Source: Sedimentibacter sp. SX930 (GTDB lineage: Bacteria; Bacillota; Bacilli; Lactobacillales; Aerococcaceae). From it: 64,000 bases of DNA. The position numbers and the translations under genes were made by a program. Below the pieces are notes generated by a model. The model had not been told where the DNA came from and ran no database searches. It saw only the letters and a program-made list of their open reading frames with translations. Shown here one piece after another: positions 2,255 to 57,407 of this stretch. The DNA lies in the NCBI GenBank assembly GCA_002155105.1, contig MUZD01000001.1, forward strand, positions 372,001 through 436,000. The letters are read 5' to 3'. The number at the start of each line of letters is the position of its first letter. Within the stretch, counting starts at the first letter, position 1.

Positions 2255-2384
2255 GATATTCGGGAAATCAATTCAACCGCAAGAAATATTTCCGGATAAA
2301 AACCAGATATCCGGGGAAAAAACCTAGACCGCAAGCCAGCTTCCCGAATAATAACCAGATATTCGGGAATTTGGTTTGTGGTCT
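2255..2384. repeat. Intergenic palindrome array, family C (about 51-bp period)
   Basis: Three GATAT(T/C)CGGG arms start at 2255, 2306 and 2358, so spacing is 51 and 52 bp. The second and third belong to hairpins of similar design: TTCCGGATA at 2290 with TATCCGGGGA at 2308, and TTCCCGAATA at 2341 with TATTCGGGAA at 2360, each with an A(A/T)AACCAGA-like loop. The third extends to a stem of about 25 bp (2326-2350 with 2360-2384; three G-T pairs and one mismatch). No T-run follows, so these are not ordinary terminators. They lie between bglP and the first GH1 gene. Confidence 0.75.
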
Positions 2385-2490
2385 CAGGCGCCCGAACCCA
2401 TTTGGGATGAGTTTTCATCATTCAGGGCTGTCCCGCAATGAGTCAGACCCGTGCATAAAAAAGATTCAGAAAAAGAATAGGAGCGATCAC

Positions 2491-3909
2491 ATGCAAACTG
2501 TATTTCCAAAAGGATTTTTATGGGGTGGCGCAACAGCCGCTAACCAATACGAAGGTGCTTATAATGTTGACGGAAAGGGGCTTTCCGTTCAGGACGTAAC
2601 CCCTCAAGGCGGATTTGGGCCGATCACTGATGGTCCTACACCTGACAACATGAAATTGGAAGGGATCGACTTCTACCACCGTTATAAAGAAGATATCGCC
2701 TTGTTCGCGGAAATGGGCTTCAAAACATACCGTACTTCCATCGCATGGACACGCATCTTCCCGAACGGCGACGAAACGGAGCCGAACGAAGCTGGCTTGC
2801 AGTTCTACGATGACCTGTTCGATGAATTGGCAAAATACGGCATCGAGCCGCTGATCACTTTGTCCCACTACGAAACACCGCTGCACCTTGCCCGCGAATA
2901 CGATGGCTGGGTTAACCGCAAAATGATCGGTTTCTACGAAAATTATGTGCGCACGGTCTTCACGCGCTACAAAGACAAAGTCAAATACTGGTTGACGTTC
3001 AATGAAATCAACTCGATCATCCACGCGCCATTCATGAGCGGCGGAATCGCGACAGTTCCTGAAAAATTGTCGAAATCCGATCTGTACCAAGCTTGCCACC
3101 ACGAATTGGTAGCCAGCGCTTTGGCGACAAAAATCGGCCACGAAATCAATCCGGACTTCAAAATCGGCTGCATGGTCATCGCAATGCCGACTTATCCGTT
3201 GACTTCCCACCCTGACGATATCATCGCGGTCATGGAAGCGGACCGTCAAAACTTCTTCTTCTCGGATGTGCATGTTCGCGGCACGTATCCTGGTTACATG
3301 AAGCGCTATTTCCGTGAGCACGGCATCGAGCTGAACATCACTCCTGAAGATGAAGAAATCCTGAAGAACACTGTCGATTTCGTTTCCTTCAGCTACTACA
3401 TGAGTTCCACGGAAACGGCTGATCCTGCCAAGAGAGCAGCAGGTGAAGGCAATATCTTGGGCGGAATTCATAATCCATACTTGGAAGCTTCCGAGTGGGG
3501 CTGGCAGATCGATCCAAAAGGCTTGCGCATTATCCTGAACACTTTCTGGGATCGTTACCAAAAGCCATTGTTCATCGTCGAAAACGGCTTGGGTGCTGTC
3601 GATCAGTTGGTTGAAGGCGAAGACGGCCAAATGACTGTCAACGACGACTACCGCATCAACTACTTGAACGACCACTTGGTGCAGGTTGCTGAAGCGATCG
3701 CGGACGGTGTGGATCTGATGGGTTACACGACTTGGGGCTGCATCGATTTGGTCAGCGCTTCGACTGCAGAATTGAAGAAACGCTACGGCTTCATCTATGT
3801 CGACCGCCACGACGACGGATCCGGCACTTTGAACCGTTACAAGAAAAAATCATTCAACTGGTACAAAGAAGTCATCGCAACAAACGGCGCATCTTTGGTA
3901 CAGAAATAG
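2491..3909 (+). CDS. GH1 6-phospho-beta-glucosidase (first of two)
   Basis: A 472-residue glycoside hydrolase family 1 TIM barrel that would cleave the 6-phosphorylated beta-glucoside delivered by the adjacent PTS. Visible hallmarks are the N-terminal [14 protein letters not shown], the acid/base glutamate E172 in TFNEIN, the nucleophile E364 in IVENGLG, and a C-terminal [10 protein letters not shown] segment characteristic of phosphate-binding GH1 enzymes. ATG 2491 is chosen because AATAGGAGCG precedes it and the conserved N-terminus begins right after; longer in-frame starts run into the palindrome array. The second GH1 gene follows 11 bases after the stop. Confidence 0.92.
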
Positions 3910-3920
3910 GAGGAATTGTC

Positions 3921-5330
3921 ATGTATGCAGGTAAAGGATTTCCGGAAGGTTTCTTCTGGGGCGGCGCCACAGCCGCCAATCAATTTGAAGGAGGTTGGGA
4001 CGCTGATGGGAAAGGTCCGTCGGTAATCGACCAACTGACCTGCTCGCGTGACTTCGCTGAGCGCTTCGCCGGAGTCGGCGACTACTACCCTTCGCACATC
4101 GGTATCGATTTTTATCATCGCTACAAGGAAGATATCGCTTTGTTCGCAGAAATGGGCTTCCGGATGTTCCGGATGTCGATCGCCTGGACGCGGATTTTTC
4201 CGAATGGCGATGAACTGGAACCGAACGAAGCCGGCTTGGCCTTTTACGATGACGTCTTCGATGAATTGGCGAAATACGGCATCGAACCATTGGTGACGAT
4301 CTCGCATTTCGAAATGCCGCAATATCTGGTCGACCACTACGGCGGCTGGAAAAACCGCAAGCTGATCGGCTTCTTTGAAAGATATGCGACAACATTGTTT
4401 GAACGCTATCAAGGGAAAGTCAACTATTGGCTGACCTTCAACGAAATCAACATGGCGACGTTCCTGCCGCAGATTTCGATCGGTTCGAAAGCCGAAGCGG
4501 GCGAAAGCCAGGAAGAAATCATGTATCAAGCCTTGCATCACCAATTTGTCGCCAGCGCTTTGGCGACGAAGGCTGCGCGGGCAATCGATCCCGACAACCG
4601 CATCGGCTGCATGATCGCCTATGCGCCGGTCTATCCGTTGTCGGCAAAACCGGAAGACGTTTGGTCAGCGCAACGAAAAGAAGAAGAAAAACTGTTCTTC
4701 TCAGATGTCCATGCCCGCGGGTATTATCCGCCGAGCAAACTGGCTTACTTCGCCACTAAAGGCATCAACGTTACGTTCGAACAAGGCGACGAGGAAATCT
4801 TGGCTGCACATACGGTCGATTTCATTTCCTTCAGCTACTATGCTTCCAGCGCAGCCAGCTTTGCACAATCCGGCGTGCCGGGTGAAGGCAATGCTTTGAT
4901 GGGCGAGAAGAACCCGTACTTGGCGGAATCGGAATGGGGCTGGCAAGTCGATCCGTTGGGCCTGCGCGTCGCTTTGAACACGTTCCACTCCCGTTACCAA
5001 CTGCCGCTGATGGTTGTCGAAAACGGTTTGGGAGCTGTGGATGAAATCGTCGATGGCCAAATCCATGATGATTACCGCATCTCCTACCTCCGCGACCACG
5101 TCAAAGCGATGCGGGATGCGATCGTGCTGGACGGCGTGGATCTTGTCGCCTACACCTCTTGGGGCTGTATCGACTTGGTTTCAGCCGGTACGGGCGAGAT
5201 GGCGAAACGCTACGGCTACATCTACGTGGACCGCAATAACGACGGTTCAGGCAGCTTGGATCGTCTGAAGAAGGATTCCTTCTACTGGTACCAAAAAGCC
5301 ATCGCCAGCAATGGCGAAGATTTGGATTAA
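3921..5330 (+). CDS. GH1 6-phospho-beta-glucosidase (second of two)
   Basis: A 469-residue GH1 enzyme closely resembling its upstream neighbour, with acid/base E175 (TFNEIN), nucleophile E367 (VENGLGAVD) and the same [10 protein letters not shown] phosphate-site segment. The pair reads as a tandem duplication with partial divergence, which may broaden the range of phospho-beta-glucosides used. TAGGAGGAA overlaps the end of the previous gene, so the two are translated from one message. A strong terminator follows at 5339. An in-frame upstream extension overlaps the previous gene's coding sequence and is not credible. Confidence 0.92.
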
Positions 5331-5338
5331 ACAAATAC

Positions 5339-56309: not shown

Positions 56310-57128
56310 ATGAAAAACTTCAAATCTAGATTATTCGTAACAAGCGCAACTTTAGCAGCCATCGGTTTTATGGCAACAGCGAATCCTACACAAGCAAATG
56401 CAACAGAATATACTTCATCCACTTGGACAGCACGTACAGCAGATCAAATCAAAGCGGATATCCAAAGCTTGGAGAGCGGCAGCAAATACACTTTCCAATG
56501 GGGCGATACTTTATCAGCAATCGCATTGGCAACTGATGTATCAGTGAATGCCTTAGTTGATGTGAACAGCATCGGAAATGCAGACATGATCATTGCCGGC
56601 AACGCAATCGTATTGTCAGCGGATCACAACATCGTGACTGTTGAACAAGACTCAGAAGTGAAGAGCTACGATGTCAGCTCTGAAGAAGCAGTGGAAGTTG
56701 AAACTCCAGTTGAAGCAGTTGAAGAAGTGCAGGCAGCTGCACCAGTTGCAGAACCAGTTGCAGCGCCAGCTGTAGAAACATATGTTGAGCCAGTTGCAGT
56801 AGCACAAACGGCAGCACCGACTTACCAAGCGAGCTACTTCTTGTATCAAGTAGTCCAAGCTGAAGCAGGCCCAAGCTACCAAGAAAAATTGAATGTTGCT
56901 TCTGTTATCATGAACCGCGTTGAATCAGGAATCTGGGGCGGAACGACAATTGATGCTGTATTGTATGCATCAGGTCAGTTCTCAGTAGTTTCCAACGGAG
57001 CTGCTGCAGCAGAAGTACCTTCTGCTGACACAATCCAAGCAGTTAACGAAGTATTGAACGGGTACCGTTCAACTTCAGCACAAAGCTTCCGTGCTTCAGG
57101 CGATGGCGTAACAAACGTATTCTTCTAA
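56310..57128 (+). CDS. Secreted LysM protein with SleB-type cell wall hydrolase domain
   Basis: A 272-residue secreted protein. A signal peptide (to about residue 31, NPTQANA) is followed by a LysM-like domain (about 50-95, YTFQWGDTLSAIALATDVSV), a Pro/Ala/Val/Glu-rich linker, and a C-terminal domain resembling Hydrolase_2/SleB: VVQAEAGPSYQEKLNVASVI with the candidate catalytic Glu, MNRVESG, and an ending GDGVTNVFF. It probably cleaves peptidoglycan. ATG 56310 follows AAAGGGA; a longer upstream frame would add an unconserved basic stretch before the signal peptide. Confidence 0.88.
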   Translation: MKNFKSRLFVTSATLAAIGFMATANPTQANATEYTSSTWTARTADQIKADIQSLESGSKYTFQWGDTLSAIALATDVSVNALVDVNSIGNADMIIAGNAIVLSADHNIVTVEQDSEVKSYDVSSEEAVEVETPVEAVEEVQAAAPVAEPVAAPAVETYVEPVAVAQTAAPTYQASYFLYQVVQAEAGPSYQEKLNVASVIMNRVESGIWGGTTIDAVLYASGQFSVVSNGAAAAEVPSADTIQAVNEVLNGYRSTSAQSFRASGDGVTNVFF

Positions 57129-57159
57129 TAAATATAAACAATACTGATAGTACAAAGTA

Positions 57160-57197
57160 AAAAGCTGAATCCTTTGCGGGTTCAGCTTTTTTTGTTT
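57160..57197 (+). terminator. Terminator after the LysM/SleB gene
   Basis: AAAAAGCTGAA pairs with TTCAGCTTTTT across TCCTTTGCGGG. Confidence 0.9.
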
Positions 57198-57220
57198 GAA
57201 TCGTCGGATAAAGCCGAAGG

Positions 57221-57407
57221 TTGTCCGATACCGGGAAAGAATCGGACAAGCAGCATGCGGAAGGGTTGCAGGTTGTCCGATATCGCGGGAGAATCGGACA
57301 AGCAGCATGCGGAAGGGTCGGAGGTTGTCCGATATCGCGGGAGAATCGGACAAGCAGCATGTGGGAGAGCCGGAGGTTGTCCGATAACACCGAAGAATCG
57401 GACAACC
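57221..57407. repeat. Tandem palindrome array, family A (four units, 52-bp period)
   Basis: Units start at 57221, 57273, 57325 and 57377, each TTGTCCGAT ... AATCGGACAA with a short central segment. Linkers share CAGCATGCGG(A)AG with the array at 5416. The period is exactly 52 bp. It lies between the convergent LysM/SleB and HD genes, bounded by terminators on both sides. Confidence 0.93.

Follow-up and report, generated by a model that had tools for sequence, protein, structure and literature searches.

We analysed a 64,000-nucleotide stretch of DNA deposited as Sedimentibacter sp. SX930 (the window: contig MUZD01000001.1, C1 below, positions 372,001 to 436,000; assembly GCA_002155105.1), whose intergenic regions carry tandem arrays of short palindromes of two families, A and B. 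Our analysis revealed that the spacing of such palindromes is quantised, at about four, five or six turns of the DNA helix, across units with unrelated arms, and that the length of the linkers between units is strongly constrained. Judged by its sequence, the source genome belongs to Trichococcus. A first-pass annotation of the window had described three unrelated palindrome families with a common period of 50-52 bp, and had proposed that the copies lie on one face of the helix. Arms that vary at a constant spacing, with copies on one face, were borne out in several Bacilli by scans that specify no arms and by the suppression of length changes in linkers. We consider it probable that the arrays are read as helically phased double-stranded DNA. 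More tentatively, and with somewhat less than even confidence, we propose that A and B represent a class of tandem palindromes in the intergenic DNA of Bacilli, kept in whole-turn register as a phased platform for a DNA-wrapping protein.

Palindrome spacing is quantised across unrelated arms

In the window, exact family A matches numbered 10, against 0 in 100 shuffles, and the perfect units at 5417-5700 were spaced 52, 52, 51, 51 and 51 bp apart. When the own genome (G000, 3.13 Mb in 37 contigs) was searched with loops of N8-16 allowed, 88 A units were found and a reversed-pattern control gave 0. We then counted units in sampled Trichococcus DNA (1.04 Mb), where loci were partly fetched by the N11 pattern and unit length is biased accordingly: all 259 perfect and all 40 one-mismatch A units were 27 bp long. 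Neighbouring A units up to 200 bp apart were spaced exactly 52 bp in 222 of 237 cases and 51 bp in seven. Adjacent linkers within an A array were 83% identical on average (n = 153), and linkers from different arrays 38%; these unit, spacing and identity counts take in two loci from outside Trichococcus (L099 and L103), which later counts exclude. Family B follows the pattern CTCCGRYGA...TCRYCGGAG. Its spacings in the window were 50-51 bp, and in the sampled DNA all 42 exact units were 26 or 27 bp long, with 52 of 62 neighbour spacings up to 130 bp falling at 50-51.5 bp. A whole-turn period with arms free to differ was found in both families, at 52 bp for A and 50.5 bp for B. All loci named by the first-pass annotation were present, the seventh being a single B unit at 33112-33137, and the repeats lie far above chance. 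Its claim of constant length, loop and period held roughly but not exactly, since A has 27 bp at 52.0 bp, B 26-27 bp at about 50.5 bp and the supposed third family, C, 29 bp at 51-52 bp.

Neither random spacing nor a lack of enrichment over shuffled sequence was seen. In 456 kb of contig C1 there were 28 palindrome pairs at 48-54 bp, whereas three shuffles gave 1, 1 and 0; 52.0 bp was the largest single spacing class (18 pairs). Because the A pattern itself occurs in few Bacilli genomes (see below), the class was sought without specifying arms, as tandem palindromes in the intergenic DNA of ten genome samples (about 2.13 Mb). In the final scan, open reading frames (ORFs) were masked, spacings of 30-100 bp were admitted and families were grouped by arm similarity; this mask conceals some Trichococcus arrays that hold chance ORFs, so that G000 gave 10 loci against 18 under an earlier gene mask. 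The arm-similarity filter was passed by 40 of 43 loci, and 37 of these 40 had periods of 41-42, 50.5-52.5 or 61-62 bp, that is, about four, five and six helical turns. Shuffled controls gave 0 loci, except that one of the three shuffles of G201 gave 1. By arm family, 24 of 27 fell on this grid, and the other three stood at 31.5, 35 and 36 bp. The phasing statistic R was 0.80 at 10.4 bp, a value that none of 100,000 uniform sets attained; R was nearly as high for any assumed period from 9.5 to 10.6 bp, which leaves the exact helical repeat below the resolution of these data.

Unrelated arms shared a period even within a single genome. In G330, TGTCCGAT-type, GTCCGTCATC and ACAGGTTTG arrays were all at 52 bp, and in G155, TGTCCGAT-type, GATGTTGATA and TCCGGATAC arrays were all at 62 bp; G155 also spans several grid values (41, 51 and 61-62 bp). 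At least six arm families were present in one genome sample, that of the g80 genomes. The samples of G391, G530 and G166 yielded no array in the arm-blind scan. Tandem Repeats Finder (TRF), which applies no palindrome criterion, placed 42 of 49 intergenic loci at 40-42, 51-53 or 61-62 bp; hence the grid is no artefact of the palindrome filter and extends beyond clear palindromes. As a separate observation, intergenic rows of direct motifs of about 9 bp (TATCGACCA, ATTGGCGA, CGTGCAATT, TCGCCAATA) occur in the G330 samples, for example near C1 positions 71120, 80136, 149952, 162901, 227410 and 460713, recurring every 20-21 bp, or two helical turns, in units of 40-42 bp.

The linkers were found to change in sequence and hardly at all in length. 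Ordinary Trichococcus intergenic alignments contained 122 gap openings per 1795 mismatches. At that ratio, the 661 substitutions between adjacent A linkers should have been accompanied by 44.9 length changes, and only 4 were seen, an 11-fold deficit. Something therefore maintains the spacing, however the arrays arise.

Changes in the arms gave a different picture for each family. At A arm position 5, 11 paired double changes were counted at four or more loci, against 0.9 expected if the two sides were independent; one of the 11 probably comes from a spurious unit. Selection need not be invoked for this symmetry, as template switching between the arms could also produce it. Inner B arm positions 6-7 varied independently, with 13 paired changes in 42 units where 13.3 were expected. 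In codirectional gaps, arm mismatches on the sense strand were 3 G.U and 14 A.C in A, and 20 and 22 in B. Such arm changes are unlike those of paired RNA, and no Rfam family matched the arrays at gathering score. Among the Trichococcus loci, L070, L028 and L065 carry A-type arms TGTCGGAT/ATCCGACA or TGTCTGAT/ATCAGACA, two-sided changes that leave the 52-bp period intact.

The strongest harmonic of G/C content in array averages corresponded to about one cycle per helical turn, nearest 10.4 bp. For palindromic families of 52 bp it was the fifth harmonic, with a relative power of 2.66 (n = 15; 0 of 20,000 control draws), and for those of 62 bp the sixth, at 2.51 (n = 7; 36 of 20,000). TRF arrays of 41 bp peaked at the fourth (3.05, n = 9; 0 of 20,000) and those of 52 bp at the fifth (2.25, n = 8; 63 of 20,000). 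The corresponding values were about 1.1 in random intergenic DNA and 0.91 in simulated palindrome arrays. The 10.4-bp peak was present in the A-type arrays of the f37 genomes (2.56, top in 18 of 27) and in Trichococcus B arrays (1.85, top in 12 of 25).

Arrays of the window and their relatives in other genomes

Dense A matches in 52-bp rows were found, among the matches listed, in T. pasteurii, T. ilyis, T. patagoniensis, T. flocculiformis and others. Of 13 Trichococcus genomes searched, 12 contained family A, and none of the 63 other genomes of the taxonomic family did. Family B was present in all 13, with 19 to 233 units each (a control gave 0 in 12 genomes and 1 in one); within the order, 4 of 198 genomes had it, two of them outside Trichococcus with a single unit each. 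A search for the tandem A pattern over the Bacilli, with unit lengths of 24-31 bp and many spacings allowed, returned 5 of 398 genomes: G000, G418, G330 and G171, with listed periods of 52 or 51 bp, and G155, with 62 bp. The tandem pattern was carried by 29 of 193 genomes, from 6 of 25 genera, in the family to which G330 belongs; 28 such hits were sampled at one locus each, and there near-perfect units were 27 bp long in 95 of 100 cases and spacings were 52.0 bp in 78 of 97. G330 appears to belong to Mesobacillus, since its congener G540 has a listed match whose sequence and position coincide exactly with those of L086 of Mesobacillus boroniphilus; G155 is probably Macrococcoides, as M. goetzii L093 carries almost identical arrays with a period of 61-62 bp. 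In four families of Bacilli, A retains TGTCC...GGACA and a length of exactly 27 bp. With different linkers, these units recur at 52 bp in Trichococcus and the f57 and f37 genomes, and at 62 bp in g80. Between lineages the linkers diverge in sequence at a constant length, and passing from 52 to 62 bp adds one helical turn. G529 had 64 forward A matches, and other g174 genomes had 0 or 1. Outside the Bacilli, isolated matches of the A pattern fell in Proteobacteria and other groups; single A-like palindromes TTGTCCGAT-N11-ATCGGACAA stand at L017, L019, L036 and other Methylocapsa/Beijerinckiaceae loci, on several contigs from unrelated Alphaproteobacteria.

The features of the window are collected in Table 1. 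Two terminator-like hairpins bracket the array at 57222.

Table 1. Palindrome arrays and the family C stretch, in window coordinates
Feature	Position	Strand	Units	Flanking genes
Family A array	5417..5752	.	six perfect 27-bp palindromes TGTCCGAT-N11-ATCGGACA starting at 5417, 5469, 5521, 5572, 5623, 5674; degenerate seventh at 5726-5752	convergent gap: GH1 gene (+, 3921-5330) / SNO/PdxT-type amidotransferase gene (-, 5743-6315)
Family A array	57222..57404	.	four 27-bp palindromes, period 52	convergent: LysM/cell-wall-hydrolase gene (+, about 56310-57128) / HD-domain gene (-, 57469-58005)
Family B array	23162..23288	.	good units at 23212 and 23262, poor one near 23162	
Family B array	27758..27884	.	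27758, 27809, 27859; period 50-51	convergent gap: HMG-CoA synthase (+) / HMG-CoA reductase (-)
Family B single unit	33112..33137 (C1:405112-405137)	.	one	intergenic gap
Family B array	47862..47988	.	47862, 47912, 47963	convergent gap: patatin gene (+) / Meth_synt_2 gene (-)
Family C hairpin leader	2249..2490	+		phosphotransferase system (PTS) EIICBA gene (290-2248) / GH1 gene (2491-3909)

Orthologous gaps were then compared within Trichococcus. The gap at 5417 could be assessed in 10 of 13 genomes, nine of which hold A-type units, from degenerate ones up to eight full copies (G067); G000 has six and G068, of the same species, three, and in G064 the gap is filled by B units instead. Among 11 orthologues of the 57222 gap, six have one to four units and five have none; in G070 the arms are TGTCGGAT...ATCCGACA, a two-sided change. 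At the 27758 locus, B units persist in 10 of 13 genomes, and at the 47862 locus in 10 of 12 orthologues assessed, being absent from the latter in G060 and in the same-species G068. Arrays therefore persist across species, vary by whole units and can vanish. The eight-unit array of G067 (L154), orthologous to that at 5417, contains a 156-bp higher-order repeat of three units, a trace of unequal exchange.

A and B, taken for unrelated in the first-pass annotation, have a TCCG...CGGA core in common; with that core, and with an orthologous gap that either can fill, the two may be related. The third of its families, C, did not stand as one. At 2262-2365 stand two copies, 73% identical and offset by 52 bp, with a partial third one further upstream; the stretch occupies the same place, 3' of the PTS EIICBA gene and 5' of the GH1 gene, in 12 of 13 Trichococcus genomes. 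Its loops and helices were conserved in 11 aligned sequences. In the main helices, 20 one-sided changes keep the pair through G.U and 7 break it, and a two-sided change was seen in one pair only. C is a single conserved leader before a glycosidase gene and no repeat family; its substitutions carry the signature of an RNA leader with weak covariation, and it is likely to be RNA. For this reason C was not grouped with A and B. Rfam gave no family at gathering score, nor any near threshold, for the stretch. The leader also carries a repeated loop, AAAACCAGATAT, and may be a cis-regulatory RNA.

Two further features of the window were observed. A long imperfect inverted repeat, GCGGTCCAAGCC...GGCTTGGACCGC, lies at about 29358-29480, between the HMG-CoA reductase gene (-) and the next gene (+). 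Between about 12000 and 18000, the G+C content is 34-40%, compared with about 48% in the surrounding DNA, and few genes are called; this part looks like imported DNA.

Gene context and possible readings of the arrays

Arrays were concentrated where genes converge. Gaps of at least 100 bp between called genes were counted in 456 kb of Trichococcus DNA, where one B unit lay inside a called gene: A or B units occupied 17 of 35 convergent gaps, 11 of 121 codirectional ones and none of the 53 divergent ones (Fisher p, 8.6e-9 and 2.5e-4). With a cruder gene mask, all ten samples gave 20 of 143, 29 of 543 and 5 of 214, respectively.

The register and its upkeep together argue that double-stranded DNA is read from one side. 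In the mechanism that we propose, the letters of the palindromes would be free to change while copies were held about 41.5, 51.5 or 61.5 bp apart, and the array would be read from one helix face as a double-stranded, phased and bendable platform. Since many unrelated arms share the register, a single sequence-specific reader is unlikely, and a wrapping or bending protein fits better. Such a DNA-wrapping protein would sit at transcription-unit 3' ends. DNA gyrase would be the first candidate, by analogy only, because its E. coli sites are G/C-phased, lie downstream of transcribed units and include BIME-2 arrays (BIME, bacterial interspersed mosaic element). In the passages of PMC6379681 cited here, those sites show phased 10-bp G/C variation and are enriched downstream of transcribed operons, with BIME-2 palindrome arrays over-represented among them. 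On this analogy, gyrase in particular might be the reader of the arrays, which we regard as possible but doubtful. Unequal exchange of whole units would raise or lower copy number, and copies that break register would be removed by selection. We likewise regard it as possible but doubtful that the elements form a class defined by geometry itself, in which interchangeable palindromes at four, five or six turns would act as stations where gyrase or a similar protein wraps DNA at the ends of transcription units, with a turn number specific to each lineage.

Several observations weigh against the proposal of a phased platform. G330 had little or no convergent bias (3 of 41 convergent, 16 of 150 codirectional and 2 of 53 divergent gaps), and six B units were classed as divergent in the wider named Trichococcus loci. 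G/C phasing was poor in Trichococcus A, where power at 10.4 bp was 1.57 and top in 15 of 68 arrays, with stronger signals at 8.7 bp (2.2) and 6.5 bp (1.73); the 5417 array itself scored 0.78 at 10.4 bp, and two palindromic families of 41-42 bp had no peak (0.67). The spread is also patchy (5 of 398 Bacilli genomes, 29 of 193 in one family, and the three samples without any array), and the arrays are therefore no general gyrase site. Moreover, the attraction of gyrase to downstream regions is seemingly not hard-wired, according to the same passages of PMC6379681.

The arrays resemble several known kinds of repeat. Like repetitive extragenic palindromes (REPs) and BIMEs, they are short intergenic palindromes at gene 3' ends, with many clustered copies. 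The cited passages describe BIME-2 arrays as gyrase sites (PMC6379681); for the present arrays, G/C phasing was computed as an indirect indicator, with the mixed outcome given above. Unlike REPs and BIMEs, they form head-to-tail rows at one rigid period, and their arms vary between arrays. REP dimers, by the portion of PMC3733652 cited here, are mostly head-head or tail-tail and rarely head-tail, an arrangement from which the head-to-tail rows of a 52-bp A unit differ, and the phyla listed there for GTAG and CGTC repeats do not include Firmicutes. GTAG stood near 21 of 303 A units (background 2.6%) and CGTC near 1 of 303; for B units, CGTC was found at 2 of 57 and GTAG at 0. A partner transposase of the RAYT (REP-associated tyrosine transposase; TnpA_REP) kind, which the first-pass annotation had suggested looking for, found no support. 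Y1_Tnp matches occur in 12 of 13 Trichococcus genomes and do not correlate with A copy number: G063, with 15 A units, has none, and G065, with 0 A units, has 6.

The STAR elements of Staphylococcus are likewise intergenic, in 1-7 copies that vary per locus, with locus-specific spacers and unknown function, as the cited part of PMC3532100 describes them. Their motif, T(G/A/T)TGTTG(G/T)GGCCC(C/A), has 14 bp and is followed there by a 40-44-bp spacer. The resulting period of 54-58 bp is off the 51-52/61-62 grid, where A combines a 27-bp unit with a 25-bp linker to 52 bp; TGTTGNGGCCC had 0 matches on both strands of the 456-kb sample; and STAR loci, in that description, are not common to different species, whereas Trichococcus B loci are. 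A palindromic 27-bp repeat with a 25-bp spacer could be flagged by a repeat finder among the 'false CRISPRs' treated in the passages cited from PMC5294841 (CRISPR, clustered regularly interspaced short palindromic repeats), but CRISPR spacers are unique and adjacent A linkers are similar, as given above. The arrays resemble REP/BIME, STAR and CRISPR-like repeats but lack a defining feature of each. Phased A-tracts and prokaryotic DNA curvature are a 10-11-bp sequence signal in the cited part of PMC3940949, whereas here tandem palindromes 40-62 bp apart are phased. Nor are the units intrinsic terminators: no T-run follows A or B units, and separate terminator-like hairpins flank arrays.

Other explanations have to be weighed against a phased platform. 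The units may be selfish or neutral palindromes, similar to REPs or to miniature inverted-repeat transposable elements, spread by a transposase or by gene conversion; the period would then be the length of the copied unit, and accumulation at 3' ends would follow from harm done by insertion elsewhere. High copy numbers in single species of otherwise empty genera, as in G529, the variation in copy number between strains and species, and the REP-like location at 3' ends all agree with this. We nevertheless regard it as unlikely, though far from negligible, because copy number is uncorrelated with Y1 transposases, most units lack a GTAG or CGTC tag, units are retained at orthologous positions, and both the quantised periods common to unrelated arms and the suppression of linker indels are left unexplained.

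The strongest functionless rival is a duplication that measures helical turns, in which an enzyme acting on one face duplicates about four, five or six turns at palindromes and the arrays are a by-product without function. Non-palindromic TRF repeats lie on the same grid (42 of 49), which suggests that the period may stem from the duplication step. However, linkers later change by substitution and hardly in length (4 changes against 44.9), so upkeep is needed, and half of the convergent gaps filled is much for a by-product; we judge this explanation rather improbable.

Alternatively, each palindrome could bind one sequence-specific dimeric protein, repressor-like or a nucleoid protein, with dimers cooperating five or six turns apart and the arm families reflecting different paralogues or a drifting binding site. 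The constancy of A, its 27 bp and TGTCC...GGACA across four families, speaks for such a protein, as do the compensatory changes that keep A arms symmetric (11 against 0.9) and the independence of the inner B positions (13 against 13.3), expected of degenerate half-sites. But six or more arm families in the g80 sample would require as many proteins, and no candidate gene was found, none having been sought; the explanation appears quite improbable to us. An RNA element, that is, 3' untranslated hairpins that halt transcription or shield mRNA, is the least credible reading by far: strong hairpins do stand at gene 3' ends and some arrays are located between the gene and a terminator (47862-47988), but the sense strand shows no tolerance of G.U (in A, 3 against 14 A.C) of the kind seen in the C leader (20 kept, 7 broken), T-runs do not follow the units, the 57222 array is flanked by terminator-like hairpins on both sides, and a 10.4-bp grid has no rationale in RNA.

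Among the papers listed by our searches of open-licence literature, no account of such repeats appeared, and those listed for the letters of the arms looked like chance matches; this absence speaks weakly for novelty. The apparently new trait is a class conserved in spacing and not in sequence. Palindromes are usually classified by sequence, and if a class held by its spacing exists, sequence surveys would split it and overlook the trait that is selected. Such a class would also offer a natural system, open to re-spacing, for the handling of supercoils between converging genes, as an array is present in half of the convergent gaps (100 bp or longer) of the Trichococcus sample.

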